Origin: Oscillospiraceae bacterium
GTDB taxonomy: Bacteria > Bacillota > Clostridia > Oscillospirales > Oscillospiraceae
Reading direction: 5' to 3'
NCBI GenBank assembly: GCA_017428565.1
Contig: JAFRQP010000030.1
Location: 1 to 32,888, forward strand
Length of the DNA stretch: 32,888 nt
Both the position numbers and the translations under genes were made by a program. The notes beneath the pieces were generated by a model that saw nothing but the letters and a program-made list of their open reading frames with translations, had not been told where the DNA came from and ran no database searches. Below are positions 12,833 through 28,551 of the stretch, one piece after another (position 1 is the first letter of the stretch; each line of letters opens with the position of its first letter).

Positions 12833-14310
12833 AGGGATATCTTGACGCGCTGGTGGATTACGCGCTGGTACACGGCCTGATCCAGGAGGGCGACGAGCTC
12901 TGGGCCTATAACCGCCTGCTGGAGACGATGGAGCTGGACGAGGCCGAGGGCGAGCCTGTTACGGCGGAGCTGCCGGAGATCCTGGAAAAGCTCACCGACG
13001 ACGCGGTGCGCCGGGGTCTCGTCGAGGACAACGTCACCGCCCGGGATCTCTTCGACACCAAGCTCATGGGCGCCATCCTGCCCCCGCCCCACGAGGTGCG
13101 GGCCATCTTCCGGGCGCTGTACGAGCACAGCCCCGAAAGCGCCACCGACTGGTACTATCAGTTCAGCTGCGACTCCAACTATATCCGCCGGGACCGGATC
13201 GCCAGGGACCGCAAGTGGGTCTATCCCTGCGAATACGGCGACCTGGACATCACCATCAACCTCTCCAAGCCCGAGAAGGATCCCCGGGCCATCGCCGCGG
13301 CGCGCCTCGCGCCCCAGAGCGGCTACCCCAAGTGCCTGCTCTGCGCGGAAAACGAAGGCTACGCCGGGCGCATGAACCACCCGGCCCGGCAGAATCACCG
13401 CATCATCCCCCTGGAGATCAACGGCTCCCCCTGGTACTGGCAGTACTCCCCCTATGTGTACTACAACGAGCACTGCATCGTCTTCAACGCCCAGCACACT
13501 CCCATGAAGATCGACAAAGCCGCCTTCCTGAAGCTGCTGGACTTCGTCACCCAGTTCCCCCACTACTTCGTGGGCTCCAACGCGGATCTGCCCATCGTGG
13601 GCGGCTCCATCCTGAGCCACGACCACTTCCAGGGCGGGCACTACGAGTTCGCCATGGCCAAGGCTCCTGTGGAGACGCCGGTGGTCTTCCGGGGCTATGA
13701 TGACGTCCAGGCGGGCCTGGTGAAGTGGCCCATGTCGGTGATCCGCATCACCGGGCCGGACCGCTTCCGTCTGGCGGAGCTGGCGGACAAGATCCTGGGC
13801 TGCTGGCGGGGCTATACCGACGCGGAGGCGACGATCTTCGCCGAGACCGAGGGCGTGCCCCACAACACCATCACCCCCATCGCCCGCCGGCGGGGCCGTC
13901 AGTACCAGCTGGATCTGGTGCTGCGCAACAATCTGACCACGGAGGAATTCCCTCTGGGTCTCTACCATCCCCACCAGAACCTGCACCACATCAAGAAAGA
14001 GAACATAGGCCTCATCGAGGTCATGGGTCTGGCCGTGCTGCCCAGCCGCCTGAAGACGGAGCTGGAGGAGCTACGCCGGGCGATCCTGGCGGGCGAGGAC
14101 CTGCGCGCAAATCCCCTCACCGCCGCACACGCCGACTGGGCGGAGGAGCTGAAGGGCCGCCACGCCTTCACCGAGGAAAACACCGAAGCCATCCTCCAAC
14201 AGGAGGTGGGCGAAGTGTTCATGCAGGTGCTCACGGACGCCGGCGTCTACAAGCGGACGGATTTCGGCAAGGCCGCTTTCCTGCGCTTTATTGATTATGT
14301 AAACCAATAG
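12829..14310 (+). CDS. galT: UDP-glucose--hexose-1-phosphate uridylyltransferase, Gram-positive type
   Basis: The enzyme exchanges UMP between UDP-glucose and galactose-1-phosphate. The 493-residue length and motifs match the Firmicutes GalT (GalT2-like) family rather than the shorter E. coli type: DWYYQFSCDSNYIR, YPKCLLCAENEGYAGR, GGSILSHDHFQGG with the catalytic His region, and GLYHPHQNLHHIKKENIGLIEVMG. The Cys pair in YPKCLLC could bind a metal. It overlaps galK by four bases (ATGA), so the two are translationally coupled. The last codons (FIDYVNQ) are AT-rich, unlike the rest of the gene, and contain a XerD-arm-like TTATGTAAACC. A bidirectional hairpin terminator follows. Confidence 0.95.
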   Translation: MKGYLDALVDYALVHGLIQEGDELWAYNRLLETMELDEAEGEPVTAELPEILEKLTDDAVRRGLVEDNVTARDLFDTKLMGAILPPPHEVRAIFRALYEHSPESATDWYYQFSCDSNYIRRDRIARDRKWVYPCEYGDLDITINLSKPEKDPRAIAAARLAPQSGYPKCLLCAENEGYAGRMNHPARQNHRIIPLEINGSPWYWQYSPYVYYNEHCIVFNAQHTPMKIDKAAFLKLLDFVTQFPHYFVGSNADLPIVGGSILSHDHFQGGHYEFAMAKAPVETPVVFRGYDDVQAGLVKWPMSVIRITGPDRFRLAELADKILGCWRGYTDAEATIFAETEGVPHNTITPIARRRGRQYQLDLVLRNNLTTEEFPLGLYHPHQNLHHIKKENIGLIEVMGLAVLPSRLKTELEELRRAILAGEDLRANPLTAAHADWAEELKGRHAFTEENTEAILQQEVGEVFMQVLTDAGVYKRTDFGKAAFLRFIDYVNQ

Positions 14311-14349
14311 AGTTTACGATAATATACGATCATTGTTCTTATGTAAACT
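14295..14349. other. Cluster of three XerD-arm-like motifs (dif half-sites)
   Basis: TTATGTAAACC lies at 14295-14305 inside the last codons of galT. An inverted, imperfect AGTTTACGATAA is at 14311-14322, and TTATGTAAACT is at 14339-14349. The last is identical to the XerD arm of the B. subtilis dif site. The second and third form an inverted pair with a 16-base spacer. No XerC arm at the correct 6-base spacing is visible, so this is not a complete dif. Confidence 0.55.
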
Positions 14350-14357
14350 CAACGGAC

Positions 14358-14397
14358 AACAGCAAGCTCCCTGCCGCACGGCAGGGAGCTTGCTGTT
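14358..14397. terminator. Bidirectional terminator between galT and the lar operon
   Basis: A perfect 18-base-pair stem (14358-14375 with 14380-14397) with loop GCAC. The TAA stop of the convergent pyrophosphatase-like gene lies within its right edge. T-tracts are weak on both sides. Confidence 0.75.
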
Positions 14398-14719
14398 ATA
14401 GCTCGATCTCGCTCTGAAAAAACCGCTCCTGGAAATCCACGGCGGCGGCGATCTGCTCTTTTGTAAAGCGGCTGCCCTCCGGGGCGACCACCCACTTGTC
14501 CTCCACGTCGTCCAGACGGCGGATCCGGGCGATCAGCTGCCCGGTAAAGCGCTCCAGAGGCCGGTCCACGCCCAGGATATAAGCGTCCTGCTCCTCCCCG
14601 TCTCCGCCCAGGACGCTGGGGACGAAGCCGTAATTCACCGGGTAGATCAAATCCGGATACTCAGGGTGGGCGCTGCCGAGAGGGCGGTCCACCGCCACCG
14701 TAACAGTCCTGCCGATCAC
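14396..14719 (-). CDS. Small inorganic-pyrophosphatase-like protein
   Basis: This 107-residue protein belongs to a short Clostridia/Bacilli family annotated as inorganic pyrophosphatase (it begins IGRTVTVAVDRPLGS). It keeps traces of the family I core: LIYPVNYGFVPSVLGGDGEEQDAYILG in place of the DxDPxD region, and RLDDVEDKWVVAP resembling the later Asp/Lys motif. The full set of metal-binding Asp residues of family I enzymes is not present, so activity is uncertain. The start is GTG at 14719, overlapping the kinase-like gene by GTGA. As the last gene of the nickel-pincer operon it could remove pyrophosphate released by LarE and LarC. Confidence 0.7.
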   Translation of the reverse strand: MIGRTVTVAVDRPLGSAHPEYPDLIYPVNYGFVPSVLGGDGEEQDAYILGVDRPLERFTGQLIARIRRLDDVEDKWVVAPEGSRFTKEQIAAAVDFQERFFQSEIEL

Positions 14720-15237
14720 AGCCGGCCCTCCTCGAAGAGGCGCAGGGCGGCGTCCACCTGCCGCTGGTTTTCCAGCAGGTGGCTCTTCTGCGGGTACCGC
14801 CGCACCACGTCCCGCATGTTCCGCTTCTTCTCCTGTGTGCAGCCACGCCGCAGCACCCAGTCGGCGAAATCCCGGTCCAGCCTCTCCGTGCAGCCCTCGG
14901 CCATATCCGGGCGGGTCTGTCCCCGATAACGCCGGTAGCGGCGGCACACCCGTGCAAAGCGGGTGAAGCGGTTGAAGAGCAGGATCCAGATCTGATCCGC
15001 CTCCTCCAGCCGCCGCTCGTAGGAAAGCTTGGTGTAGTTCCCGTCGATGATCCAGGCCAAATGGGAGTCCAGAAACTCTTCCACCATGGCCTGCTTCTCC
15101 TCCGGGGGACGGATCTCCCAGTCCGGGAGAAACTGCACATTATCCAAGTGCAGCACCGGGGCCCCGGTGAGCTCCGACAGCGTTTTCGCCAGAGTGGACT
15201 TGCCGGAGCCGGCAAAGCCCAGGATCGCAATCTTCAA
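14716..15237 (-). CDS. P-loop nucleotide kinase-like protein (adenylate kinase/FlaR-like)
   Basis: The 173-residue protein starts with the Walker A motif GFAGSGKST (7-15) and has the LHLDNVQFLPDW and WIIDGNY segments of the 'topology modulation'/adenylate-kinase-like family, with basic stretches CRRYRRYRG and EKKRNMRDVVRRYP that may form the phosphate-binding lid. The substrate is unknown. The start is TTG at 15237, created by the TTGA overlap with larC. Position in the lar operon suggests recycling of AMP or CMP, but small kinases of this family are common and the link is only by context. Confidence 0.75.
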   Translation of the reverse strand: MKIAILGFAGSGKSTLAKTLSELTGAPVLHLDNVQFLPDWEIRPPEEKQAMVEEFLDSHLAWIIDGNYTKLSYERRLEEADQIWILLFNRFTRFARVCRRYRRYRGQTRPDMAEGCTERLDRDFADWVLRRGCTQEKKRNMRDVVRRYPQKSHLLENQRQVDAALRLFEEGRL

Positions 15238-16409
15238 AACCGCTCCTCCAACAGGGCCGCCGCCTCCCGCAGGCTGATCCCCAGCCTCCGGGCGACTGCC
15301 GCCAGATCCTCAAATTCCGGCTTCTCCCGGCTGACGCCGAAGCCCTCGGCGGTCTTGACGCGCACCGGCCCCGCCTCCGTCTCCACCGTGCGGAAGTCCC
15401 GGCGCAGGGTATAGCGGGGATGGGCAGTCTCCCGCACTCCCAGGGTCCCGGTGTGCCGGAACAGGCAGCGCAGCAGCTCCTCTCGCCGTTCTTGTTTACA
15501 TAATACTGTTAACATAATGCCCGGACGGTTCTTCTTCATGCCGATGGGCGTGGTGAAGACGTCCAGGGCGCCGCCCTCGAAGAGCCGCTCCATGGCGAAG
15601 CCGATCTCCTCCGGCGTGTTGTCGTCCAGATTGCAGCTGAGCTCCAGGATGCTCTCGCGCTCCTCCCCGCTCTCACCCCAGAGGGCACGCAGGATATTAG
15701 GGCTGGCGAAGTCCTTGGTGCCGGTGCCCACGCCGCTTTTCAGCAGACGCATGGCGGGGATCGGCCCGAAGCCGGCGGCGAAGTAACCCAGCAGGGCAGC
15801 GCCCGTGGGGGTGCAGAGCTCGCCTTTTTCGCTGCCGCCCTCGATGGGCAGGCCCCGCAGCAGCAGCGCGGTGGCGGGGGCGGGCACGGGCAGGACGCCG
15901 TGGGCGCATTTCACCGTGCCGCTGCCCACGGCGATGGGCGAGCAGACGATCCGCTCCGGCGCAAGCTCGTGCAGCAGCCAGCACACGCCCAGCACGTCCG
16001 CCAGGGCGTCCAGGCTGCCCAGCTCGTGGAGGTGGATGTTCTCCACCGGCGTGCCGTGGACCTGGCTCTCCGCCTCCGCGATGCGGCGGTAGACGGCGGC
16101 GGCGTCCTTTTTCACCTGCTCCGGCGCGTCCAGGGCCTCGATCCGCGCCAGGATCTCCGCAACAGAGGTATGGGGGTGGTGGTGATGACCGTCCCCGTGC
16201 CCCTCCTCTTCCCCGTGGACGTCCACATGGAAGTGGGTGCCGACAATGCCGCGCTTTTCGTCCCGCTCCGCCCAGACGGTGACGCCCGCGGGCAGGGCGG
16301 CGTTGAGCTTTTTCAGAAAAGCCGCAGGTTCAGGGTGCAGCTCCAGCAGGGCCGCCGCCAGCATGTCCCCGGCGGCGCCCATGGCGCAGTTGAAATACAG
16401 GATCTTCAC
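15234..16409 (-). CDS. larC: Nickel-pincer cofactor nickel insertase LarC
   Basis: LarC inserts nickel into pyridinium-3,5-bisthiocarboxylic acid mononucleotide in a CTP-dependent step. The 391-residue product begins ILYFNCAMGAAGDMLAAALL, a LarC hallmark, and has a His-rich metal-binding segment at about 65-80, NIHLHELGSLDALADVLG, and the C-terminal SCNLDDNTPEEIGFAMERL domain. In Lactobacillus plantarum the two parts are joined by a ribosomal frameshift, while here they are one continuous frame. The start is GTG at 16409, overlapping larE by GTGA. Codons near 15493-15517 (IMLTVLCKQ) are unusually AT-rich and contain two XerD-arm-like motifs. No lactate racemase gene (larA) is in the window. 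Confidence 0.93.
   Translation of the reverse strand: MKILYFNCAMGAAGDMLAAALLELHPEPAAFLKKLNAALPAGVTVWAERDEKRGIVGTHFHVDVHGEEEGHGDGHHHHPHTSVAEILARIEALDAPEQVKKDAAAVYRRIAEAESQVHGTPVENIHLHELGSLDALADVLGVCWLLHELAPERIVCSPIAVGSGTVKCAHGVLPVPAPATALLLRGLPIEGGSEKGELCTPTGAALLGYFAAGFGPIPAMRLLKSGVGTGTKDFASPNILRALWGESGEERESILELSCNLDDNTPEEIGFAMERLFEGGALDVFTTPIGMKKNRPGIMLTVLCKQERREELLRCLFRHTGTLGVRETAHPRYTLRRDFRTVETEAGPVRVKTAEGFGVSREKPEFEDLAAVARRLGISLREAAALLEERF
15493..15517 (-). other. Tandem pair of XerD-arm-like motifs inside larC
   Basis: On the minus strand TTATGTTAACA (15517-15507) is followed three bases later by TTATGTAAACA (15503-15493). Both encode part of IMLTVLCKQ with rare TTA, ACA and GTA codons. 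Confidence 0.5.
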
Positions 16410-17161
16410 AGACTTGTTCTCCTCCCTTCCGGGTCGATGCGGATCTCGGAAAAATCGGCCGCCAGCCGCCGGCGGATCTCCTCCTCCCGCGCATAGGCGG
16501 CGGGAAGCTGCTCCGCCGGAAACTGCAGCAGGGCCGCGCCCCCGCAGGTGCGCAGGCGGAAATCGGTGAAGCCCAGGGAGAAGAGGAAGTCCTCCCCCGC
16601 CTCCACCGCAGCCAGACGCTCGTTTGTGATGCTCTCCCCGGTCTTGACCCGGGTGGCCAGGCAGGCGTAGGCAGGCTTATTCCAGGTAAAGAGCCCCGCC
16701 TCCCGGCTGAGACGCCGGATCTCCGGCTTTGTGAGACCGCAGAGCCGCAGGGGCGACAGCACCCCCAGCTCTCCCAGCGCCCGCATGCCGGGCCGGTCGT
16801 CCGCCGCGTCCGAGGCGTTGGTCCCGTCCAGCAGGAAGGGATAGCCTTCCTCCCGCGCGGCGGCCATAACGGTTGACATAATATTGATCTTGCAAGAATA
16901 GCAGCGATCCGGGCCGTTGGCCCGCACCTCCGGAACGGAGAGCGCGTCCAGCCGCAGCACCCGGGGCTCGATCCCCAGCTCCCGACAGAGGCGCAGGGCG
17001 TCCTCAAACTCGAACTGGGGCTGGAACTGGCTCTTGACGTAGTAGGGCCGGATCTCCGCGCCGCAGGAAAGGCCCGCGTATAGCAGGTAGGCCGAATCCA
17101 CGCCCCCGGAAAAGGCCAGCGCGGCCCTGTGGTAGGCGCGGAAGAAATCTTGAATGGTCAT
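16406..17161 (-). CDS. larE: ATP-dependent sacrificial sulfur transferase LarE, probable iron-sulfur type
   Basis: LarE adenylylates and thiolates the pyridinium dicarboxylate intermediate of nickel-pincer cofactor synthesis. The 251-residue protein has the PP-loop SGGVDS (18-23) and three cysteines in the pattern RCYSCK (Cys87, Cys90) and YACLATR (Cys167). The last matches the sacrificial Cys of the L. plantarum enzyme. The additional pair suggests the form that carries a [4Fe-4S] cluster and can recycle sulfur instead of being consumed. I chose the ATG at 17161, which has GGAGG 11 bases upstream. An ATG at 17179 is too close to any ribosome binding site. It overlaps larC by GTGA. It contains one XerD-arm-like motif at 16871-16881. 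Confidence 0.92.
   Translation of the reverse strand: MTIQDFFRAYHRAALAFSGGVDSAYLLYAGLSCGAEIRPYYVKSQFQPQFEFEDALRLCRELGIEPRVLRLDALSVPEVRANGPDRCYSCKINIMSTVMAAAREEGYPFLLDGTNASDAADDRPGMRALGELGVLSPLRLCGLTKPEIRRLSREAGLFTWNKPAYACLATRVKTGESITNERLAAVEAGEDFLFSLGFTDFRLRTCGGAALLQFPAEQLPAAYAREEEIRRRLAADFSEIRIDPEGRRTSL
16871..16881 (-). other. XerD-arm-like motif inside larE
   Basis: TTATGTCAACC on the minus strand, coding part of NIMSTVM in an AT-rich codon patch of a GC-rich gene. It matches TTATGTNAAC. Confidence 0.4.
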
Positions 17162-17195
17162 AGGCGTATGATCCTCCATTCTCCGGAACCGGCAG

Positions 17196-17266
17196 CCCCT
17201 TCCGTCATCCGGCTTGCGTGAGACGCCGGATGCCACCTCCCCCTTGGGGGGGAGGCAAGAAGCGCC
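17196..17266 (+). repeat. GC-rich palindromic intergenic repeat, type A, inside the lar operon
   Basis: This element fills most of the 121-base gap between larB and larE. Its outline is CCCCTTCCGTCA, a stem-loop around CTTGCGTGAGACG, GCCACCTCCCCC, then GGGGAGGCAAGA and GCGC. The same element occurs in opposite orientation at 28335-28402 with only scattered differences, so it is a dispersed, probably mobilised repeat. It contains no gene. Confidence 0.75.
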
Positions 17267-17282
17267 CCTCGTCCTGTCAAGC

Positions 17283-18035
17283 TCACTCCAGATGATTGAT
17301 CACGCTGGCCATGAAGCCCGCGCCGAAGCCGTTGTCGATGTTCACCACCGCCACCCCGCTGGCGCAGGAATTGAGCATGCTCAAAAGCGCGGCCACGCCG
17401 CCTAAGGAGGCGCCGTAGCCCACGCTGGTGGGCACGGCGATCACCGGGCAGTCGGCCAGACCCCCGATGACCGAGGGCAGGGCCCCCTCCATGCCGGCCA
17501 CGGCCACGATGACCCGGGCGCTCATGATCTCGTCCACATGGCTCAGAAGCCGGTGGATGCCGGAGACGCCCACGTCATAGAGCCGGGTGACCCGGTTGCC
17601 CAGGGCCTCGGCGGTGACGGCGGCCTCCTCGGCCACGGGGATATCGCTGGTGCCGCCGGTGGCCACCACCACGGTTCCCTTGCCCGTGGGCTCCGGCAGC
17701 CTGCCGATCACGCCGGTTTTGGACCGGGGATCATAGCGCAGGGGCAGCTCCGTCTCCAGCAGGGCCGCGGCCTCCGGGGTGAGACGGGTGACCAGCACCG
17801 TCTCCTGCCCCGCCTCGCGCATGGCCTTGGCGATGCCCAGGATGTGCTCCGGCGCCTTGCCCGCGCCGTAGATGACCTCCGGCACGCCCTGGCGCAAGCC
17901 CCGGTGCAGATCCACCTTGGCATAGCCCTCCAGCTCCCGAATGGGCGCGGTCTTCAGCTTCAAAACCGCCTCCTCCACCGAGATGGCCCCGGCTGCCACG
18001 CTCTCCAGCAGAGCGGTGATCTCCTGCTTATCCAT
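17283..18035 (-). CDS. larB: Pyridinium-3,5-biscarboxylic acid mononucleotide synthase LarB
   Basis: LarB carboxylates and hydrolyses nicotinic acid adenine dinucleotide, releasing AMP, in the first step of nickel-pincer cofactor synthesis. The 250-residue length is typical. Visible family motifs are VDLHRGLRQGVPEVIYGAGK, VVATGGTSDIPVAEEAA, RLYDVGVSGIHRLLS and VAVAGMEGALPSVIGGL, followed by PTSVGYGASLGG and NIDNGFGAGF. These place it in the AIR-carboxylase (PurE)-related fold. The ATG at 18035 follows GGAGG with a 6-base gap and overlaps the MOSC gene by 8 bases. The gap to larE is filled by an intergenic repeat. Confidence 0.95.
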   Translation of the reverse strand: MDKQEITALLESVAAGAISVEEAVLKLKTAPIRELEGYAKVDLHRGLRQGVPEVIYGAGKAPEHILGIAKAMREAGQETVLVTRLTPEAAALLETELPLRYDPRSKTGVIGRLPEPTGKGTVVVATGGTSDIPVAEEAAVTAEALGNRVTRLYDVGVSGIHRLLSHVDEIMSARVIVAVAGMEGALPSVIGGLADCPVIAVPTSVGYGASLGGVAALLSMLNSCASGVAVVNIDNGFGAGFMASVINHLE

Positions 18036-18477
18036 TCAGCACCTCCATCGAGTCGCCGGGGCGGACCTCACCCGCCTCCAGTACCCGGACGAAGATCCCC
18101 TCCCGGGGCATGACGCAGTCCCCCGCCTGGCGGCGGATGGCGCAGTCGGCATGGCACTCCTTGCCGATCTGGGTCACCTCACAGAGGGCGCTGCCCAGAC
18201 GCAGCTTCGTCCCCACCGGCAGACGGGACACCTCGATCCCCTCCACCAGCACGTTCTCCGCGAAGGCGCCGGGCAGCAGCGGGAAGGGGATCTTCTCCTG
18301 CAGCCGGGCAACGCTCTCCGCCGAGAGCAGGCTCAGCATCCGGTGCCAGTCCCCGGCGTGGGCGTCCCCGGGGATGCCCAGATGGGGCTCCAGCCGGATC
18401 GCGTCCACCGGGTGCTTCTGCTGGCCCTTCTTCTCGCTGATGCAGACGGCCTTGACGACGGCCTTTTGTTTATTCAT
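18028..18477 (-). CDS. MOSC-domain protein
   Basis: The 149-residue protein is a single MOSC (molybdenum cofactor sulfurase C-terminal) domain. It shows IPGDAHAGDWHRMLSLLS, PGAFAENVLVEGI and the conserved cysteine region QIGKECHADC. MOSC proteins bind or move sulfur and metal-pterin cofactors, and short stand-alone forms in Clostridia usually accompany moaC or mog genes. It overlaps moaC by 8 bases and larB by 8 bases. The ATG at 18477 has GGAGG 7 bases upstream. The other in-frame ATG at 18483 is too close to it. Its place between moaC and larB raises the question of whether it serves molybdenum or nickel cofactor chemistry. Confidence 0.85.
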   Translation of the reverse strand: MNKQKAVVKAVCISEKKGQQKHPVDAIRLEPHLGIPGDAHAGDWHRMLSLLSAESVARLQEKIPFPLLPGAFAENVLVEGIEVSRLPVGTKLRLGSALCEVTQIGKECHADCAIRRQAGDCVMPREGIFVRVLEAGEVRPGDSMEVLNG

Positions 18478-18952: not shown

Positions 18953-18993
18953 GGCTTTTCGCTCCGTTCCGGCCCGCAGCTCGGGCCTTCCCC

Positions 18994-19022
18994 AGTGTAA
19001 CACAAAGATCGGTTTTGTGCAA
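18994..19022 (-). promoter_or_regulatory. Promoter of the moaC-lar operon
   Basis: On the minus strand TTGCAC (19022-19017) and TACACT (18999-18994) are separated by 17 bases, about 40 bases before moaC. I saw no moco or nickel riboswitch in the short leader. Confidence 0.7.
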
Positions 19023-19081
19023 TCGGCTGCTCCGGGGTTTTTTCGTCTCTCCAAAAAAAACCGCGTGCCCGCCGTTCCCTC

Positions 19082-19110
19082 TTGACTTGCGCCTTGATTT
19101 AGTGTACCTT
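19082..19110 (+). promoter_or_regulatory. Candidate promoter of the phosphodiester-glycosidase-like lipoprotein gene
   Basis: TTGACT (19082-19087) and TACCTT (19105-19110) are 17 bases apart. The -10 is poor, so this is tentative. Confidence 0.4.
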
Positions 19111-20680: not shown

Positions 20681-21817
20681 TCAGTCCCCTTCGGCGGCGA
20701 GCAGCGGATCGTAATAGTTCACCAGCAGATCCACGCAGGCGCCGTAGCTCTTGAGCCCCAGCTCCTGGTCATAGCTCTGGAGAAAGCCCTCGTACACCGT
20801 GTTGGAGACCTGCCGCGCAGGGGTCTCGAACTGCTTCCAGTATTCCCGGTTGGCGTCAAAGTCCCGCCGCACGTCCTCGTTCAGGCTCTGGTAGATCTCC
20901 TGCCAGGCGGCGTAGTCCACATCGTGGAGGGCGTTTCCCAGGTGGGTGTAGGCCAACAGCGCCGCGGCGTAGACATACTCCGGCTCCCCGTAGTCCAGGC
21001 AGGCCAGCACCGCCACGAAGTTGGCCTCCTGCTCCCGGGCCACACCCCGCTGGTGGGCCAGCTCATGGGCCACCGTGGCCGGAAACTCGCAGCTTGGGCA
21101 GTCGGTGTTCACGTTGGCCTCAGCCGTGAGGGGGAAGAAAAAGCCGGTGAAGTCGATGTAGCTCATGACGCGGGAGAAGAACACGCCCTTGGCCCGCACC
21201 TCCGGTCCCTCCAGACAGGGGTAGCGCTCCTCCAGGCCCAGATAGACCTCCGGAGATTTCTGCAGCACCGCCCGCCGGTCCAGATCGCAGACGCCGTTTT
21301 CGTCCCGGGGCACCCGGTCGGAATACTCGTTGGCCAGGCCGGCGAAGTAGGCGGTCACCCGCTGAAGCTGCTCCACGCTGATCTTCTCGTGGGGCAGGCC
21401 GCTGCGGGTCATGAAGTCGTCCCCATAGTAAAACACGCCCCAGAGCAGGCAGAAGCTGCCGTAAAACACCGCCCCCGCCGTCAGCAGCGCGGTGAGGATG
21501 AGGTAGAGCCGCTTCGCCCACTCTTTGCGCCGGATCATCCGAACAATGGTAAGGATTATGTAAACCAATCCGCCGATGACCGCCGCCGCGATCAGCAGCT
21601 CCGCCAGGGAGAAGGGCAGCACGTTGGTCGCCCGGCTGAGAAAGCGGTGCGCCGGGCGCACAAAGCGCTCGGAGAGGGTCTGGTTCAGCGCATGATCCCC
21701 CCGGGTGGCCAGGTGCAGGCCGATGATCAGGGCATTCAGCAGGATCAGCACATGGCGGACGGGGCAGAGCTTCCATATGGCGGCAAGGCCGCGTTTTTCG
21801 GTCTTCACGTTTTCCAT
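20681..21817 (-). CDS. DUF3810 membrane protein with an HExxH zinc-protease motif
   Basis: The 378-residue protein has three N-terminal membrane segments (about 20-37, 68-93 and 104-130). A large outer domain follows, with HELAH (251-255) preceded by CEFPATVA and followed by RGVAREQEANF, whose Glu264 could be the third zinc ligand. This pattern fits DUF3810, a gluzincin-like family of unknown substrate. Other features are GVFFSRVMSYIDFTGFFFPLT before the active site and CPSC (240-243). The gene stands alone between two terminators. An AT-rich codon patch at 21552-21570 in the second membrane segment holds a XerD-arm-like motif. The function is unknown, and an envelope protease is inferred. 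Confidence 0.85.
   Translation of the reverse strand: MENVKTEKRGLAAIWKLCPVRHVLILLNALIIGLHLATRGDHALNQTLSERFVRPAHRFLSRATNVLPFSLAELLIAAAVIGGLVYIILTIVRMIRRKEWAKRLYLILTALLTAGAVFYGSFCLLWGVFYYGDDFMTRSGLPHEKISVEQLQRVTAYFAGLANEYSDRVPRDENGVCDLDRRAVLQKSPEVYLGLEERYPCLEGPEVRAKGVFFSRVMSYIDFTGFFFPLTAEANVNTDCPSCEFPATVAHELAHQRGVAREQEANFVAVLACLDYGEPEYVYAAALLAYTHLGNALHDVDYAAWQEIYQSLNEDVRRDFDANREYWKQFETPARQVSNTVYEGFLQSYDQELGLKSYGACVDLLVNYYDPLLAAEGD
21556..21566 (+). other. XerD-arm-like motif inside the DUF3810 gene
   Basis: TTATGTAAACC. It is part of a 16-base exact repeat, GATTATGTAAACCAAT, that also occurs at 14293-14308. Confidence 0.45.
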
Positions 21818-21915: not shown

Positions 21916-21929
21916 TGTGTTTATGGGGT

Positions 21930-23057
21930 TTAGGGGATCTCGAAGGTCACACCGCCCAGGGTGACGCCAACCACCCGGCTGAGATCGATGGTAGAACCGA
22001 AGAGGCACTTGTCCTTCACCATATCTCCCGCCAGCTCGCTGCTGAGGGGCAGGTTCACAGCCATGCTGCTGCCGTCGGCAAAGTGCAGCACCGCCGTCCG
22101 CTCCAGCTCCTCGATGGCCTGGAGCCAGCTCTGCTCCCACTCCAGGAAGTCCCGGCGTTCCTCTTCCGAGGCGAAGTCCCGGGGCCGGTACATCTCACTC
22201 GCGCCGTCGTGGCGGAGGATCCAGTTGAGGCCGCTGGCGCTGAGCTCCATACCCAGGAATTCGCCGCTGCCGCGGTCGCCGTTTGTAAAGGGCACAGGCT
22301 CCGGGAACCAGAACGTGCGCAGGGTCTGGCCGGTGCGCTCCACGGTCACGCTGCCCAGATCCCAGGCCAGCTCCCCGTCGGAATCATGGGCGTCGCCGTA
22401 GTCGATGACGTCCATGATGATAAATCGCAGCTCCGCCCGCTCCGGCATCCTGTCAATGGTGATGGCCGTTCGCACCGTCAGGGTGCCGCTCTCCTCGTCG
22501 TAGGCGTCCCACAGGCCCTCCGCGTTGTGGCCGCCCTCCGGCCAGACGTCGTACCAGCTCTCCCCGTCCCAGCCGCAGTAGAGCCAGCAGTACCGGTGGT
22601 CGTTCTCCCCCAGGGGGCTGCCGTCCCGATCCTCCCGGATCGGCGCGGCCATGCGCTCGACCATCTCCGGTGTCACGCCGTTGAGCACCACCCAATAGTT
22701 CTGGAACTCCCCGTCGCTCATGGCGGAGAGCAGGGTCACGCCGGTCTCCGGCGCCTCTGCCGGATCCTCCGGCACCGGGTATTCCACATAGTCCTCCACC
22801 CGGTTCTCGTCCACCTGCAGCTCCTGCCGCAGCTCCTCCTGCCGCTGCCGGTGGATGCTCAGCCCGATGGCCCAGGCCGTGGCGCCAAGGGCCAGGATCA
22901 GCGCCGCCGCCAGCGCCAGGGTCACCAAACGTTTGCTCTTCATCTTTCCGCTCCTTTCCGGGGAGCCGACCGCCTCCTCGGGCGCGTAGCGCAGCGCTTC
23001 CGCAACATAGCGGTCGTCCAGGCCGCTCAGAGCCGCAAAGACTTTTTCCCGATTCAT
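21930..23057 (-). CDS. Membrane anti-sigma factor, DUF4179-like (second copy)
   Basis: The 375-residue protein has an N-terminal cytoplasmic part (1-42) that could grip the sigma factor, one membrane helix (about 43-64, LVTLALAAALILALGATAWAI) and a large outer domain. It is paralogous to the protein at 3272-4435, and the similarity is clearest just after the membrane segment (RQ.ELR.EL, YVEY..PE, LLSA..DG.FQ). The outer domains diverge, with a Trp/Tyr-rich stretch here (YCWLYCGWDGESWYDVW), so different signals are likely. It overlaps the sigma gene by ATGA at 23054-23057. Confidence 0.78.
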   Translation of the reverse strand: MNREKVFAALSGLDDRYVAEALRYAPEEAVGSPERSGKMKSKRLVTLALAAALILALGATAWAIGLSIHRQRQEELRQELQVDENRVEDYVEYPVPEDPAEAPETGVTLLSAMSDGEFQNYWVVLNGVTPEMVERMAAPIREDRDGSPLGENDHRYCWLYCGWDGESWYDVWPEGGHNAEGLWDAYDEESGTLTVRTAITIDRMPERAELRFIIMDVIDYGDAHDSDGELAWDLGSVTVERTGQTLRTFWFPEPVPFTNGDRGSGEFLGMELSASGLNWILRHDGASEMYRPRDFASEEERRDFLEWEQSWLQAIEELERTAVLHFADGSSMAVNLPLSSELAGDMVKDKCLFGSTIDLSRVVGVTLGGVTFEIP

Positions 23058-23611
23058 GTCAGCAGGCCCTCCTTTTGCAAAGTCTTCCGCAATTTCTCGC
23101 GGAGGCGGAAAAGACGCAGGGAGATCCGGCTCTCCTTCCGCTGCATGGCGGCGGCGATCTCCTTCACCGAGTCGGCGTACCAGTAGCGGCGCACGAAGAG
23201 GAAGCGGTCGTCATAGCTGAGGCTATCCAAAAAGCGGTTGATCCCCTCCACCGTTTCCTTGTAATCGTAGTCCGCCTCCACACTCTGGCCGGAGGGGAGA
23301 AAGTCCTCCAGCTCCTCCAGCACCAGATCCAGGCCGCGGTTTCGCTTGGCCGCCGTCTCGCTGCGGAGCCGGGACACCGCCAGGTTGCGGGCAATGCGGC
23401 AGACGTAGCTGCAGAGAGGCTTGGGACGCTGAGGCGGGATACTGTTCCAAACCCCCAGCCAGGTGTCGTTGACGCATTCCTCCACATCCTGTCGGTTCCG
23501 AAGGATATTCCCCGCCGTTTTCGCCGCGGCGGCGCCGTATTTTCTGTCCAGCTCTCCGATGGCCTGTTCCGAGCGCTCAAAGAACAGGGCGATGATCTGT
23601 TCATCCTCCAT
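23054..23611 (-). CDS. ECF-type RNA polymerase sigma factor (second copy)
   Basis: The 185-residue sigma factor has region 2 (about 15-80: AIGELDRKYG, AGNILRNRQDVEECVNDTWLGVW, SYVCRIARNLAVSRLR) and region 4 (about 125-180: SYDDRFLFVRRYWYADSVKEIAAAM, ESRISLRLFRLREKLRKTL). The RRYWY and NDTW motifs are typical of Clostridia ECF factors paired with DUF4179 anti-sigma proteins. The ATG at 23611 has AGGAAG eight bases upstream. The GTG nine bases earlier abuts the ribosome binding site and is unlikely. It differs enough from the factor at 4416-5003 to suggest a separate regulon. Confidence 0.9.
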   Translation of the reverse strand: MEDEQIIALFFERSEQAIGELDRKYGAAAAKTAGNILRNRQDVEECVNDTWLGVWNSIPPQRPKPLCSYVCRIARNLAVSRLRSETAAKRNRGLDLVLEELEDFLPSGQSVEADYDYKETVEGINRFLDSLSYDDRFLFVRRYWYADSVKEIAAAMQRKESRISLRLFRLREKLRKTLQKEGLLT

Positions 23612-23681
23612 CCGCGTCACTTCCTTTCCGCCTCACCTATCTACTCGCAAAACGAAGGCGCATCTTGCAGGTCTCGGAGAA

Positions 23682-23710
23682 AAAATAGCATGTTTCCCGG
23701 GAATTGGCAA
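23682..23710 (-). promoter_or_regulatory. Promoter of the second sigma/anti-sigma pair
   Basis: On the minus strand TTGCCA (23710-23705) and TATTTT (23687-23682) are separated by 17 bases. The gap between them includes the palindrome TTCCCGGGAA, a possible operator. Confidence 0.6.
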
Positions 23711-23802
23711 GGCTGTGGACCCGGCGCCGGTGACGGATGTCCGACCTAGCGCCGGGGGCGAGATCCTTCGCTTCGCTCAGGATGACAGGGGGACGGGGGA
23801 AA

Positions 23803-23850
23803 CCCCTCCGACCTCGCTGCGCTCGGCCACCTCCCCTTTCACGGGAGGCG
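23803..23850 (+). repeat. GC-rich palindromic intergenic repeat, type B
   Basis: It begins CCCCTCCGACC, contains the stem CTCGCTGCGCTCGG, and continues CCACCTCCCC and CGGGAGGCG. The same design occurs in opposite orientation at 28093-28150. A short companion repeat, GATCCTTCGCTTCGCTCAGG, precedes it at 23763-23782. The gene-free stretch 23711-23867 holds only these repeats. Confidence 0.65.
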
Positions 23851-23867
23851 GACGGGCGCAAAAAAAG

Positions 23868-23900
23868 AAGACGATCTGCCGTTTTGTCGCAAATCGTCTT
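23868..23900 (-). terminator. Intrinsic terminator of the infC-rpmI-rplT operon
   Basis: On the minus strand an 8-base-pair stem (AAGACGAT with ATCGTCTT), extended by three pairs after a mismatch, is followed by CTTTTTTT. It lies 21 bases after the rplT stop. Confidence 0.85.
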
Positions 23901-23921
23901 TTATTCTTTCACCGGGTCTAT

Positions 23922-24275
23922 TTACTGGGCGTTCTTCGCCAGGTCGCAGAGAGCGGTGAAGGCGGCGGGATCGTGGATGGCGGTCTCGCTGAGCATCTTG
24001 CGGTTCATCTCGATGCCGGCCTTCTTCAGACCGTACATGAACTTGGAGTAGTTCAGACCGTTCATCTTGCAGCCCGCGCTGATGCGGGTGATCCAGAGCT
24101 GACGGAAGTCTCTCTTCTTCTGCTTGCGGCCGACGTAAGCGTAGCGGCCGGACTTCATCATCTGCTCCTGAGCCATCTTATAGTGACGGGACTTGTTGCC
24201 CCAGTAACCCTTCGCCAGGCCAAGCACCTTGTTTCTGTGCTTGCGGGTCATCATAGCGCCTTTAACTCTAGCCAT
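23922..24275 (-). CDS. rplT: 50S ribosomal protein L20
   Basis: L20 binds 23S rRNA early in large-subunit assembly and in Bacillota represses its own operon through the leader. The 117-residue sequence is typical: [54 protein letters not shown], and [20 protein letters not shown] with [10 protein letters not shown]. It is the last gene of infC-rpmI-rplT, 30 bases after rpmI, and ends before a strong terminator. Confidence 0.98.
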
Positions 24276-24305
24276 TTGTCAAATCCTCCTATTTCGCGTC
24301 TGCCC

Positions 24306-24503
24306 TTATTTGTAAGGGATCATTTTCTTGATGGTGGCGGCGTTGGTCTCGTCGGCGTAGGTCTCGCTGCGCAGACGACGGCAGCGCTTGCTGTCCTTCT
24401 TGGTGAGGATATGGCTCTTGAAAGCGTGGGCGCGCTTTACCTTACCGGTCTTGGTGAGATTGAATCTCTTCTTGGCACCGCTGTGGGTCTTCAGTTTAGG
24501 CAT
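24306..24503 (-). CDS. rpmI: 50S ribosomal protein L35
   Basis: The 65-residue basic protein begins [20 protein letters not shown] and contains [21 protein letters not shown], the standard L35 sequence. The ATG at 24503 has GGAAGGAGAAAA upstream. Longer in-frame extensions run into infC and are not real. It lies 22 bases after infC. Confidence 0.98.
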
Positions 24504-24525
24504 GACTGTTTTCTCCTTCCGTGTG

Positions 24526-25098
24526 TTAGCCCTCAGGCGTTTCGGCCTTGGGCGCTTTGGGTTTTCCCGGCTTCTTCGCCGGGGTGACAGGCTTGGGGGA
24601 GAGGAACATGGACATGTTGCGCCCCTCCAGCTTGGGGGCCTTGTCCATGTTCGCAATCTCCGCGCACTGGGCCGCAAAGTCCTTCAGCAGCGTGGCGCCG
24701 ATCTCGGTATGCGCCATCTCGCGGCCGCGGAAGCGCACGCTGACCTTGACCCGGTCGCCGTCCGCCAGGAACTTCTGGGCGTTTTTCAGTTTGGTGTTGA
24801 AGTCGTTCGTGTCGATGCCCGGGGACATGCGGATCTCCTTGATCTCCACGATGCGCTGATTCTTCTTGGCCTCTTTCTCCTTCTTGGTCTGCTCAAAGCG
24901 GTACTTGCCGTAGTCCATGATCTTGCAGACGGGAGGATTGGAGCCCGGAGCGATTTTGACCAGGTCCAGTTCCTTCTCCTCCGCGATGCGGAGCGCATCT
25001 GCGGCAGACATGATGCCCAGCTGCTCGCCCTGATCTCCGATCAGGCGAACTTCCTTGTCAAGAATCTCTTCGTTGATTTGATGAACAGCGTTTGCGAT
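24526..25098 (-). CDS. infC: Translation initiation factor IF-3, with a non-canonical ATC start
   Basis: IF-3 binds the 30S subunit, keeps it free of 50S and checks the start codon. The 190-residue product has the N-terminal domain ([23 protein letters not shown]), the linker with [17 protein letters not shown], the C-terminal domain ([34 protein letters not shown]) and an added Lys/Pro/Ala tail. No ATG, GTG or TTG lies at the right place. Instead ATC at 25098 sits 6 bases after GGAGGTG, giving (M)[10 protein letters not shown]. Rare AUU/AUC-class starts are known for infC and allow IF-3 to limit its own synthesis. In-frame ATGs further upstream fall on or before the attenuator hairpin and are rejected. 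Confidence 0.93.
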
Positions 25099-25112
25099 GG
25101 GAAACACCTCCG

Positions 25113-25149
25113 AAAAAATGAAATGCGCGGACGCACAGCATCCGCGCAT
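25113..25149 (-). terminator. infC leader attenuator (transcription terminator in the 5' leader)
   Basis: On the minus strand a 9-base-pair GC-rich stem (25149-25141 with 25131-25123) is followed by TTTCATTTTTT, directly before the infC ribosome binding site. The leader runs about 155 bases from the promoter at 25260. This arrangement matches leaders of infC-rpmI-rplT operons in Bacillota, where L20 binding favours termination. I could not fold the whole leader. Confidence 0.75.
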
Positions 25150-25259
25150 AAAAACACCCATAAAGTCCACTGGGGGACGTGCTTCTATTGACCGCGGCTG
25201 GCTCTTATGGCCGCCGGGTGAGGTCGGGGATGCCGTACCTGCTTTGTTTTAGCTTTGAT

Positions 25260-25288
25260 AATATACCAGCACTTTTGCCCTTTGTCAA
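25260..25288 (-). promoter_or_regulatory. Promoter of infC-rpmI-rplT
   Basis: On the minus strand a consensus TTGACA (25288-25283) and TATATT (25265-25260) are 17 bases apart. A small hairpin (25297-25302 with 25308-25313) lies just upstream. Confidence 0.88.
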
Positions 25289-25337
25289 GGCTTTTCTCCG
25301 CATTTTATGCGGATTTTTTCAAAAACATGCCGGGCGC

Positions 25338-26606
25338 TCACGCGCTCCGCTCATTCCGGATATATTCCAGGCAGAATCGGATGTTCCCCACCTTCAGCTC
25401 CACGTCCGGTATCGTTCCCTCCAGGCTCATGCTGCCGTCCGGGTTCTCGCCGGCGACGATGCTGAAGCGGTACAGCAGCCCGGAGTCCGGAAGCCGGTAC
25501 AGCGCGGGATCGAAGCCCACGCCGTCCCCGCCGGTCGGTCTGCCGATCACGGTGGCCCAGCCGGTCGCCTTGCAGAAGAAGACGAACTGCTCCGCCGAAG
25601 AATACACCGTGCCGCTCACCAGGACCCAGCGCCTGGCGTCGCTGCGGACTTTGGGTTCTCCCTTGATCCGGTATTCTTCGACAGCATACCGGTCCAGGCC
25701 CAGCTCCAGCGCCCAGGGGGGCGGCTCCTCCGCCTCCGCCGTGGGAAAGTTCTCAAGGTGCCCGTCGATCAGCAGCCGGTTCTGCGGCGTATCCCGGTAG
25801 AACATGCGCGTGTTCACGGTGTAATCCTCGCCGAAGGGCCCCACGATGTTTTCCATCCAGTATCGGGTGTCGCCGCCGCTGTTGCCGGAGATGTCGAAAA
25901 CAATGTTCTCCGCCTCCGGGTACTGCTCGATGGCCTGCCAGATCAGGTCCCGGTCCCGCTCTACGGTCTCATGCCAGAAGGTGTAGATGGTCAGGCAGAG
26001 GGTCCGGCAGTCCTCGTAATAGGTGACCTTGACCGGCGGAAGGACGCCGACCCCGCTGTTGGCCAAGCTGCCGAAATCCTCCGGAAGAGCGTAATACGGG
26101 GACAGAGCCGCCTCCTCCACAAGCTCCCGCCAGGGGGCGTCAAAGGCATCCGTAGTGTCCTCATAGACGCTGTAGCACATGGGGAAGAAATCCGAGTCGA
26201 TCACCCCCAGATGGGCCGTGTTCCGCAGCGCGTAGAACAGCTTGTCCAGGACCGCGACAAAATCCTCCACATCCTGCGCCATCCGCGCCTGCTCCGCGTA
26301 CTGTGCGCGAATCTGATCCACCTGCACGCCCTTGCTCCGCAGATAGTCCAGATAGGGATAGTCCGTCTCCAGCGTCTCCCAGACGCGCTCATAGTCGGCG
26401 GAGAAGGGCCCCGGCTCCGGAGTTGGAGCCGGGGTCGGGATGGATTCGGTGGGCTCAGGCTCGGCGGGGGTCGGTTCAGCGGGCTCCGGTTCGGCGGCGG
26501 TCGCCCCGCTCTCTGTCGCGACGGAAGGCGCAGGCGAAGCGCAGCCGGCCAAAAGCAGCGCGACGCAGAGAATGGCGAGCAATATGCTCAGGCCTGCTCT
26601 TTTCAT
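25338..26606 (-). CDS. Lipoprotein with an S41-family (C-terminal processing) peptidase domain
   Basis: The 422-residue protein has a lipoprotein signal (LLLAGC, Cys22), a Glu/Pro/Thr-rich spacer (about 30-67) and a peptidase domain like S41/tricorn-core enzymes. VFDISGNSGGDT (236-247) corresponds to the family's D.RGN.GG strand. SGTVYSSAEQF (331-341) holds the likely nucleophile Ser337. GRPTGGDGVG (355-364) follows in the usual order. There is no PDZ domain. An N-terminal helical part (70-150) resembles the S41 cap. It starts 15 bases after deoC, with GGAG immediately before the ATG, so it is probably in the deoC transcript but weakly translated. The substrate is unknown. Confidence 0.82.
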   Translation of the reverse strand: MKRAGLSILLAILCVALLLAGCASPAPSVATESGATAAEPEPAEPTPAEPEPTESIPTPAPTPEPGPFSADYERVWETLETDYPYLDYLRSKGVQVDQIRAQYAEQARMAQDVEDFVAVLDKLFYALRNTAHLGVIDSDFFPMCYSVYEDTTDAFDAPWRELVEEAALSPYYALPEDFGSLANSGVGVLPPVKVTYYEDCRTLCLTIYTFWHETVERDRDLIWQAIEQYPEAENIVFDISGNSGGDTRYWMENIVGPFGEDYTVNTRMFYRDTPQNRLLIDGHLENFPTAEAEEPPPWALELGLDRYAVEEYRIKGEPKVRSDARRWVLVSGTVYSSAEQFVFFCKATGWATVIGRPTGGDGVGFDPALYRLPDSGLLYRFSIVAGENPDGSMSLEGTIPDVELKVGNIRFCLEYIRNERSA

Positions 26607-26621
26607 CTCCGCCGTCCCGGG

Positions 26622-27305
26622 TCAGTAATTCTCGTTGGGTGCGCCCTCGGCGTTTTCCAGCTCCATGGCCAGCTTCACGATCCGGCTGGTGCCCAGACGC
26701 TCGGCGCCCAGGTTAATGAAGTCCTCCGCATCCTGGAGGGAGGAGATGCCGCCGGCGGCCTTCACCTTCACCTCGGGGGCCACGTTCGCCCGCATGAGGG
26801 CCACGTCCTCCCGGGTGGCGCCGCCCTTGGAGAAGCCGGTGGAGGTCTTGATATACTCGCAGCCGCAGGCAGAGACGATGTGGCAGAGGCGGATTTTCTC
26901 CTCCTCGGTGAGCAGGCAGCACTCGATGATGACCTTCAGGAGCGTGCCCCGGGTGGCCTCGCGCACGGCGGCGATGTCCTTGCGCACGCCTTCCCAGTAG
27001 CCGTCCTTCACCATGGAGACGTTGATGACCATGTCGATCTCGTCCGCGCCGTTCTCGATGGCGTCCTTCGCCTCAAAGGCCTTGGCGGCGGAGGTCATAT
27101 AGCCGTTGGGGAAGCCGATGACCGTGCAGATCTTCAGCGCGTCGCCCACATAGCGCTTGGCGCCGGGGACGTGGCAGGGCGGGATGCAGACGCTGGCGCA
27201 GTGGTACTTGATGGCCTGGTCGCAGAGTTTTTTGATCTCCTCGCTGGTGCAGTCCACCCGCAGGAGGGTATGGTCGCATTTTTCAAGAATTTCACGAAGT
27301 TCCAT
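26622..27305 (-). CDS. deoC: Deoxyribose-phosphate aldolase
   Basis: The enzyme splits 2-deoxyribose-5-phosphate into acetaldehyde and glyceraldehyde-3-phosphate. The 227-residue TIM barrel has CDHTLLRVDCT near the N-terminus, VIGFPNGYMTSAAKAFEA, ADEIDMVINV with Asp91, the Schiff-base lysine in YIKTSTGFSKGGAT (Lys153), and VKAAGGI with Lys182. AAAGGAGA precedes the ATG at 27305, and a TTGATT/TATAAT promoter lies upstream. No other deoxynucleoside catabolic genes are adjacent. Confidence 0.97.
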   Translation of the reverse strand: MELREILEKCDHTLLRVDCTSEEIKKLCDQAIKYHCASVCIPPCHVPGAKRYVGDALKICTVIGFPNGYMTSAAKAFEAKDAIENGADEIDMVINVSMVKDGYWEGVRKDIAAVREATRGTLLKVIIECCLLTEEEKIRLCHIVSACGCEYIKTSTGFSKGGATREDVALMRANVAPEVKVKAAGGISSLQDAEDFINLGAERLGTSRIVKLAMELENAEGAPNENY

Positions 27306-27336
27306 TTAGGTATCTCCTTTACCGCTTGATGGCACC

Positions 27337-27365
27337 ATTATATCCGAATCCCCCCGCATAATCAA
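27337..27365 (-). promoter_or_regulatory. Promoter of deoC
   Basis: On the minus strand TTGATT (27365-27360) and a consensus TATAAT (27342-27337) are 17 bases apart. Confidence 0.85.
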
Positions 27366-27417
27366 GCCCCGGCGCGGCATAGATTGGGATGAAACCAGGA
27401 AAGGAACGGAAGAAAGC

Positions 27418-28038
27418 ATGGAAGATTTTTCGGAAAACAACCGCGTCCTGCTCTGCGGCACAGCCGCGGGGCGTCCCGTCTACTCCCACAGCAGCCGGGG
27501 GACGGATTTTTTCAGCTTCCCGCTGGAGGTGCGGCGGCTCTCCGGCAGCGTGGACCGGCTCCCACTCCTGCTGCGCCGGGAGCTGCTGGAGACGGCGGAG
27601 CTGCGGGAGGCGGGCAAGCTCCGCGTCGCGGGAGAGCTGCGCAGCTTCAACAACCGCCGGGGCGAGGGGGCGAAGCTGGTGCTCACGGTCTACGTCCGGG
27701 AGCTGGACTTCTGCGACGAGGAGGACGGAAACCTTGCCCAGCTGCGGGGTGCGCTGTGCAAGCCGCCCATCCTGCGCAGCACGCCCTTAGGCCGGGAGAT
27801 CTGCGATCTGATGCTGGCGGTGAACCGGCGATACGGCCGCTCGGACTACCTGCCCTGCATCTGCTGGGGCGCCCTGGCCCGTCGGGCGGCTCTCTGGCCG
27901 GTGGGCCAGCGGCTGCAGCTCTCGGGCAGGCTGCAGAGCCGGGACTACCGGAAGCTGACGGAGCAGGGTCCGGAGACCCGCACGGCCTACGAGGTCTCCG
28001 CCATGGAAATCGAAGAGGAAGTGAAAAGTGAAGAGTGA
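27418..28038 (+). CDS. Single-stranded DNA-binding-like protein with two OB-fold halves
   Basis: The 206-residue protein has two SSB-like segments. The first is about 8-102 (RVLLCGTAAGRPVYSHSSRG, DFFSFPLEVRRLSGSVD, LRVAGELRSFNN). The second is about 107-190 (AQLRGALCKPPILRSTPLGR, EICDLMLAVNRRYGRSDYLP, WPVGQRLQLSGRLQSRDY). Each has the start strand, core 'F.L.V.R' strand and closing 'G.L.SR.Y/FNN' strand of an OB-fold. The acidic DDDIPF-type tail of housekeeping SSB is absent. The last residues, EEEVKSEE, are encoded by a simple GTGAAAAGTGAAGA repeat that continues past the stop, so the original tail may have been replaced. AAGGAACGGAAG precedes the ATG. Confidence 0.75.
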   Translation: MEDFSENNRVLLCGTAAGRPVYSHSSRGTDFFSFPLEVRRLSGSVDRLPLLLRRELLETAELREAGKLRVAGELRSFNNRRGEGAKLVLTVYVRELDFCDEEDGNLAQLRGALCKPPILRSTPLGREICDLMLAVNRRYGRSDYLPCICWGALARRAALWPVGQRLQLSGRLQSRDYRKLTEQGPETRTAYEVSAMEIEEEVKSEE

Positions 28039-28065
28039 AAAGTGAAAAGTGAAGAAAGTGCGTAG
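28018..28065 (+). repeat. Short tandem repeat (GTGAAAA/GTGAAGA units), first copy
   Basis: About six imperfect 7-base units of (A)GTGAARA run through the stop codon of the SSB-like gene and end AGTGAAGAAAGTGCGTAG. The same array and the same end occur again at 28149-28198. Confidence 0.85.
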
Positions 28066-28092
28066 TGCATTGGAGGCGATGGACGCGAAAAG

Positions 28093-28150
28093 CCCCCCCT
28101 TGCCTAAAGGGGGGGGTGGCCGAGCACAGCGAGGCCGGGGGGGATACGGA
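28093..28150 (-). repeat. GC-rich palindromic intergenic repeat, type B, reverse orientation
   Basis: It matches the element at 23803-23850 read on the opposite strand (CTCGCTGTGCTCGGCCACC core). It is flanked by the two GTGAAGA arrays. Confidence 0.7.
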
Positions 28151-28198
28151 AGAGTGAAGAGTGACGAGTGAAGAGTGAAGAGTGAAGAAAGTGCGTAG
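28149..28198 (+). repeat. Short tandem repeat (GTGAAGA units), second copy
   Basis: About five units with one variant (GTGACGA), ending AGTGAAGAAAGTGCGTAG exactly as the first copy does. Confidence 0.85.
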
Positions 28199-28211
28199 GA
28201 GAGGCGGGGTT

Positions 28212-28450
28212 GTAGGGGCTGGCGTCCTCGACAGCCCGTAGGGCGCCCTCCGCTTCGCTCCCCCTTGCGTTCGCCCGCCGTTCCCGGCGTTTCTCCGTAG
28301 GGGCGGCCTTGGTCGCCCGCAAAGCCTTCCCCGTGCGCTCTTGCCTCCCCCTCCGGGGGAGGTGGCAGCCGCCGTCTCCCGCAAGGCGGCTGACGGAAGG
28401 GGTCCAGAGACGAGGGTTCGGGCCGCAGTGGGCGTCGGCCCCTACGGGAG
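28212..28450. repeat. Intergenic repeat island, including a second type A palindrome
   Basis: This gene-free stretch holds GTAGGGGC-headed elements at about 28212 and 28297 (GTAGGGGCGGCCTTGGTCG) and their inverted counterpart ending GGCCCCTAC near 28443. The type A palindrome, in reverse orientation to the copy at 17196-17266, lies at 28335-28402. I see no promoter or gene in 28039-28490. Long open frames here follow from the GC-rich palindromes. Confidence 0.7.
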
Positions 28451-28490
28451 ATAGCGGGCTTCCTTCCTTTTTTGTTTCTTTTTCACTCCT

Positions 28491-28532
28491 TTTGTCGAAT
28501 GGGTTGACGAGAGGCAAATAGCGCGTTATGTT
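28491..28532 (+). promoter_or_regulatory. Spo0A-type box and candidate promoter
   Basis: TTTGTCGAA (28491-28499) is a perfect match to the B. subtilis 0A box. It lies just upstream of TTGACG (28504-28509) and TATGTT (28527-28532), which are 17 bases apart. The -10 overlaps the XerD-arm-like TTATGTTAACC at 28526-28536. Confidence 0.5.
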
Positions 28533-28551
28533 AACCGTCGGAGGTGGTTTC

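Follow-up and report, generated by a model that had tools for sequence, protein, structure and literature searches.

In Escherichia coli, the matS sites lie on the terminus side of the chromosome and serve MatP, a protein that removes SMC-type complexes. To our knowledge, the removal of SMC extruders outside Bacillus subtilis and the MatP group is a largely open question. In B. subtilis, extra XerD sites are reported to lie around the terminus, and Karaboja et al. (2021) reportedly described XerD-dependent SMC unloading there. Here we analyse a stretch of 32,888 nucleotides from an Oscillospiraceae bacterium (contig JAFRQP010000030.1, hereafter the window), in which copies of a short motif, TTATGTNAAC, resemble the XerD half of a dif site. 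XerD-dependent unloading of SMC at the B. subtilis terminus is mentioned in four reports (PMC8242196, PMC8357415, PMC12322038, PMC13220808). In B. subtilis, the dif site ACTTCCTAGAATATATATTATGTAAACT has been confirmed by experiment, with TTATGTAAACT as its 3' (XerD) arm (PMC3025954). The ten bases at position 14339 of the window are identical to this arm, as first pointed out in an earlier note made from the letters of the window alone. In the xerS-difSL and xerH-difH modules, a Xer gene is described as standing beside its own recognition sequences (PMC2731167).

The window is the whole of contig C16 of a draft genome (G000; 2.69 Mb, 105 contigs, 83.7% complete). Counted on both strands, TTATGTNAAC matches it exactly seven times, starting at 14295 (+), 14339 (+), 15494 (-), 15508 (-), 16872 (-), 21556 (+) and 28526 (+), which confirms the dispersed exact sites; the earlier note had listed the same seven, with the three minus-strand coordinates one base too low. 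It had also estimated less than one chance match, and none of 100 dinucleotide shuffles of the window contained any. With one mismatch allowed, the window count is still 7, against a shuffle mean of 0.84. Five of the exact sites fall within 2.6 kb (14295-16881). After merging of sites less than 500 bp apart, the contig holds 5 sites where 0.49 are expected from the genome average (P ~1.5e-4 for a single contig, 0.016 over 105 contigs). This makes the local cluster real yet modest, in a window that had been picked for its dense look.

Across the draft genome, 43 sites were counted versus 5 for the reversed motif. Together, 36 congeners contain 1,516 sites versus 213 reversed controls; 31 of them reach at least three times (control + 1), and G011 and G028 have only 5 sites each. 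Among the family genomes that are at least 97% complete (n = 174), the excess depends on the genus, from 134 versus 15 (G210) down to 1 versus 18 (G080). Enrichment of the motif extends to most of the genus and to many of the family's genera. A small repeat inflates the count of G213, where three copies of TTATGTTAAC (621418, 622941 and 625030) follow the same GC-rich terminator-like sequence. In family f23 of the same order, a divergent motif pair 116-119 bp apart recurs and is perhaps one conserved locus (G421:127260/127376, G383:101336/101452, G343:145857/145974, G268:607436/607553, G385 C2:554192/554309, G058 C3:80375/80491 and G445:258299/258418).

Rough gene calls, for which open reading frames were chosen by G+C at third codon positions (GC3), place 22 of the 43 sites in coding sequence (N=A in 15) and the other 21 between genes. 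A codon-usage model built from four contigs of the same genome predicts 1.9 sense and 0.15 antisense coding sites genome-wide, and 0.11 with N=A (TTATGTAAAC). N is never G among the 43 sites, even though N=G accounts for half of the coding sites that the model predicts. The flanks of the 43 sites (30 tabulated, the rest read) share no common sequence, which rules out a repeat element; an uptake sequence would be expected in far more than tens of copies per genome. Within the 30 tabulated contexts, a purine precedes the motif in 28 and G follows it in none, in keeping with ATTATGTAAACT in the dif XerD arm (PMC3025954). A scan of the loci holding the 43 sites revealed none with at least 8 of 11 XerC-arm bases at dif distance, and the best 28-mer for dif in the window (at 14322) has 6 of 11. 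Likewise, the stretches scanned near skew flips gave no convincing match to a classical, B. subtilis-type 28-mer. The sites thus differ from dif in having no XerC arm joined to an XerD arm by a 6-bp centre (28 bp in all) and in occurring in 43 copies rather than one; they are half-sites lacking an XerC arm, as XerD sites of the B. subtilis type would be.

The motif is tied to XerD by copies that recur, at comparable positions, around the xerD promoter. A tandem TTATGTNAAC-N4-TTATGTNAAC (14-bp period) was found in 109 of 300 family genomes and 44 of 82 genera, occurring once in 104 of the 109; the reversed-motif tandem was counted once over all 300 genomes. Using tblastn, xerD or part of it was detected within 1.5 kb of the tandem in 27 of the first 30 listed loci. 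The XerD query came from L232, one of the 27 positive loci, and L237 is a short partial match; no xerD was found within the flank of L230, L233 (a short contig) or L234. The gene between the tandem and xerD is SpoIIM-like in all four loci scanned (Pfam PF01944 above cut-off, NCBIfam spoIIM below). Among 33 aligned tandem contexts, the majority have in common a block that contains TNATCAAG, which is -35 CTTGAT in reverse, along with further half-site-like sequence. At L230:1473-1524 (G061 C27), four direct half-sites stand in a row with a 14-bp period, the last with one mismatch, and no xerD is present in the 3 kb searched.

Within the genus, a XerD match was obtained in 37 of 41 genomes. The best 30 of these 37 were taken as loci, and 29 upstream regions were readable, L286 being cut at a contig end. 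An exact site lies upstream of xerD in 27 of the 29, with one-mismatch sites in L290 and L307; the chance expectation is about 0.016 per 800 bp upstream. In the alignment of the 27 loci, a sigma-A-like promoter (CTTGAT, 17 bp, TATATT) is preceded by a motif copy in reverse, mostly GTTGACATAA, and the promoter block TAATATATTGTT is present in 26. Shortly 3' of the -10 box follows TTATGTNAAT or a close variant; a paired site lies 78-92 bp after the exact one in 26 loci, and a third site further up in most. The distance from the exact site to the start of the XerD match is 650-685 bp in 16 loci and 130-253 bp in 11, so the sites stay with the promoter even where the spacing is too short to hold another gene. 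In the genome of the window, xerD (C96:30097-30921) has sites at 31562 and 31678, and its matched part scores 306 bits with TIGR02225 (XerD; cut-off 329.6) and 282 with PRK00283 (Xer subfamily; cut-off 279).

Because the sites keep similar distances around the xerD promoter, as they seem to in other genera, their placement suggests that XerD may regulate its own gene. The 14-bp tandem at xerD is read as an operator, since its arms are direct and it lies upstream of the probable -35 element of this operon; a dif, with inverted arms, is disfavoured on the same grounds. The position of xerD at the terminus in several genomes may leave room for the dif reading of the tandem. The motif copies at the xerD promoter are a new result: among the literature matches listed, no title concerns XerD half-sites at a xerD promoter or in this family, and the B. 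subtilis XerD/SMC work may contain more.

Placement relative to the terminus was assessed with terminus positions set from sampled GC skew (ten 6-kb samples each for G616 and G189, which were chosen for a tandem on a long contig). Blocks of 18-20 sites in about 370 kb were found in three single-contig relatives. G217 is a single contig of 4.31 Mb with dnaA at base 122, and 18 of its 44 sites fall in 2,085,218-2,456,765; the skew changes sign at ~2.04-2.085 Mb, where xerD and its tandem are located. G189 (3.67 Mb contig) has 20 of 43 sites in 2,145,457-2,517,757, a block ~0.2 Mb past both the flip and xerD. G616 (3.67 Mb contig) has 19 of 28 sites in 269,004-630,149, around xerD at 387.8 kb and close to a change of skew sign. 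Over the whole of G616 the excess is small (28 versus 12 controls), and negative skew samples also occur at 150 and 230 kb. Permutation tests, with sites less than 500 bp apart merged and termini at 2.06 (G217), 1.90 (G189) and 0.415 Mb (G616), gave p = 0.0013, 0.0025 and 0.00005, respectively, for the mean distance to the terminus, and p = 0.00025 each, the floor of the test, for the largest count in 400 kb. Permutation tests covered these three genomes, G213 and the five other single-contig genomes of the order described below. In G186, 12 of 53 sites lie in 137 kb beside a flip at ~100 kb of contig C9. Regarding a KOPS-like polarity, the sites of the G217 block divide into 10 plus and 8 minus, but 13 of 16 on G186 C9 are minus. 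In G211, G213, G217, G189 and, from few samples, G616, the xerD gene coincides with the skew flip or lies close to it. Taking the G217, G189 and G616 blocks together with the null cases below, part of the family has a terminus-side block, and in the genus the sites seem to form scattered patches.

A second Xer-type recombinase gene was noticed at or within ~30 kb of the GC-skew flip in four of four relatives (G033 C1:257969-259063, G211 C9:74173-75189, G213:1236754-1237779 and G217:2058557-2059732), with 46-61% identity between genomes. For the G033 protein the XerC model is best, with a score below cut-off. In G211 and G213, a palindrome, CAACAAAAT-N4-ATTTTGTTG, lies just upstream of this gene and is a possible unorthodox dif.

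We interpret TTATGTNAAC as the XerD recognition sequence, occurring as free half-sites without an XerC arm, and with proposed functions in autorepression and SMC unloading; we assign this a probability of roughly 0.58. It is based on the motif excess, the unrelated flanks, the similar spacing at the promoter of the (spoIIM-)xerD operon and the ~370-kb terminus-side blocks in three single-contig relatives. XerD would bind single half-sites along the chromosome and, when bound beside and just after its own promoter, would repress xerD, so that the XerD level would track how many half-sites are free. Once bound near the terminus, XerD would stop and unload SMC loop extruders, as is reported of B. 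subtilis, and the window, with five sites within 2.6 kb, would carry one dense patch of such sites. The earlier note is right on the motif and probably on XerD. Its suggestion of an equivalent of the B. subtilis XerD/SMC system is favoured by the XerD-arm identity, the enrichment, the linkage to xerD and the terminus blocks in some relatives, but the terminus claim is unproved for the window and the genus.

Several findings weigh against this interpretation. Some sister genera have no enrichment, and G213 has no terminus concentration (p = 0.78). The flip contigs of G211 (221 kb; 4 of 42 sites) and of the congener G033 (387 kb; 6 of 45) carry what is expected by length; two of the six G033 sites are the pair upstream of xerD and two are at the flip, ~90 kb from xerD. 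The xerD contigs of two further congeners, on which no flip could be located, show no excess either: 378 kb with 3 of 61 sites in G641, and 239 kb with 3 of 26 in G030. Five other single-contig genomes of the order have weak or no enrichment; with the terminus taken as half of the rounded genome length, G425 leans to the midpoint (p = 0.005), and G421, G383, G445 and G044 do not. The terminus enrichment foreseen in the earlier note is thus present in G616, G189, G217 and partly G186, and lacking in G213, G211, G033 and the xerD contigs of G641 and G030. Furthermore, the 21 sites called intergenic, several of them near start codons, would also suit a transcription factor.

It is conceivable, though rather unlikely, that XerD binds the half-sites but has a main job in the genus other than SMC unloading, be it xerD titration, action on nearby genes or organisation in scattered patches. 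The lack of a terminus excess in G033, together with compact patches elsewhere (7 sites in C6:76713-117304 of G033, 4 sites in C8:70547-73095 of G641) and the intergenic half of the 43 sites, fits such a role, whereas the terminus-side blocks of G616, G189 and G217 speak for SMC unloading. We consider it improbable that the motif is the operator of another transcription factor with the xerD operon among its targets, the XerD-arm likeness being coincidental. Sites at the xerD promoter and just before several start codons would be natural for an operator; however, 22 of the 43 sites are called inside genes, the ten bases are identical to the B. subtilis dif XerD arm (PMC3025954), and it is xerD itself that has the best-conserved copies. 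An origin as extra dif sites, or as relics or decoys of mobile elements that use XerCD, is very improbable. Some XerCD-dependent elements do carry dif-like sites, but the sites studied here have unrelated flanks and no XerC arm within the threshold given above, and many lie inside genes and are kept in the closest relative (L031). Chance, base composition or Tyr-Val-Asn coding, despite the reading of Tyr-Val-Asn in 12 of the 22 coding sites and of Y-Y-V-N-P at the G033 flip site (in a host gene we take to be metK-like), has next to no probability, being already contradicted by the empty shuffles and by a codon model that expects ~2 coding sites, or 0.11 with N=A, where the gene calls give 22 and 15.

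Inside the window, the first site (TTATGTAAAC, 14295..14304, +) lies within the final codons of galT (galactose-1-phosphate uridylyltransferase; 12829..14310, +; Pfam PF01087/PF02744) in the Tyr-Val-Asn frame. The imperfect inverted copy reported earlier is present as GTTTACGATAA at 14312..14322 (-), not at 14311; it has one inserted base and therefore gives no one-mismatch match. The site at 14339..14348 (+), TTATGTAAAC followed by T, lies between galT and a convergent gene (14396-14722). A 14-bp-period tandem of TTATGTTAAC (15508..15517, -; first half) and TTATGTAAAC (15494..15503, -; second half) lies within a larC-like Ni_insertion gene (15234..16409, -; Pfam PF01969), and the conserved block of the xerD element is absent here. 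In this GC-rich gene the frame at 15508 encodes G-I-M-L-T-V-L-C-K-Q, both leucines by TTA, so that the tandem looks like the product of selection on the DNA. TTATGTCAAC (16872..16881, -) is within a gene without a Pfam match between the larC-like and larB-like genes, and TTATGTAAAC at 21556..21565 (+) is antisense within a DUF3810 gene. TTATGTTAAC at 28526..28535 (+) directly precedes a ribosome-binding-site-like GGAGG ahead of a probable start codon at 28552; several intergenic sites elsewhere in the genome are also ~55 bp or less from a called gene start.

The L031 region shares 80% nucleotide identity with the window over the aligned part. Six sites were compared there, 28526 being left out: those at 14295, 15494, 16872 and 21556 are exact, those at 14339 and 15508 have one mismatch each, and 58 of 60 motif bases are retained. 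At 14339, the flanks diverge more than the motif. Conservation in relatives, as proposed earlier, is therefore found in L031; near galT, the number of exact sites in L032-L036 is 0 to 2, and the aligned stretches of L032 include none of the six window positions. Between 11624 and 18035, galK-galT adjoins genes of the nickel-pincer cofactor, namely larC, a putative larB and one that is larE-like; Pfam matches in this region are GalK/GHMP, GalT, Ni_insertion and AIRC, and the larE-like gene has none. Homologues of galT/galK lie at 2.25 Mb in G217, with that of galT inside the terminus-side site block, and larC/larB/larE-like homologues at 1.125 Mb in G213, ~100 kb from xerD. Any synteny with termini would be tentative, as terminus regions were sampled preferentially and the G033 terminus contig has only two or three window homologues.

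If the proposed role of XerD is true, SMC release domains would be predictable from sequence in many genomes by means of XerD half-sites and a self-controlled-looking xerD promoter, and a recombinase would have a second role as a dispersed architectural and regulatory protein. A tentative and rather less probable extension is that XerD in this family may be a self-regulating chromosome-wide binder that represses its promoter by way of half-site arrays, the dispersed half-sites both titrating XerD and marking an SMC-release domain, terminus-side in some species, such that site number and placement set the SMC landscape. The matS/MatP system of E. coli would work alike, with a terminus-side site set and removal of SMC-type complexes, but its motif and protein differ. 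Compared with dif, the XerD arm sequence is alike, whereas the sites described here have neither XerC arm nor 6-bp centre and occur in many copies per genome. As in the xerS-difSL and xerH-difH modules, the Xer gene adjoins its own putative recognition sequences, in several relatives at the terminus. In contrast to the inverted-arm recombination site of those modules, the sequences found here are half-sites, often in direct tandem beside a promoter, and the recombinase is XerD, accompanied by an XerC-like gene in the four relatives examined. Closest is XerD/SMC unloading in B. subtilis: the motif equals the XerD arm and sites lie on the terminus side in G616, G189 and G217. It differs in that a genome here has tens of half-sites in scattered patches, several relatives lack an excess at the terminus, and the xerD promoter has copies of its own.

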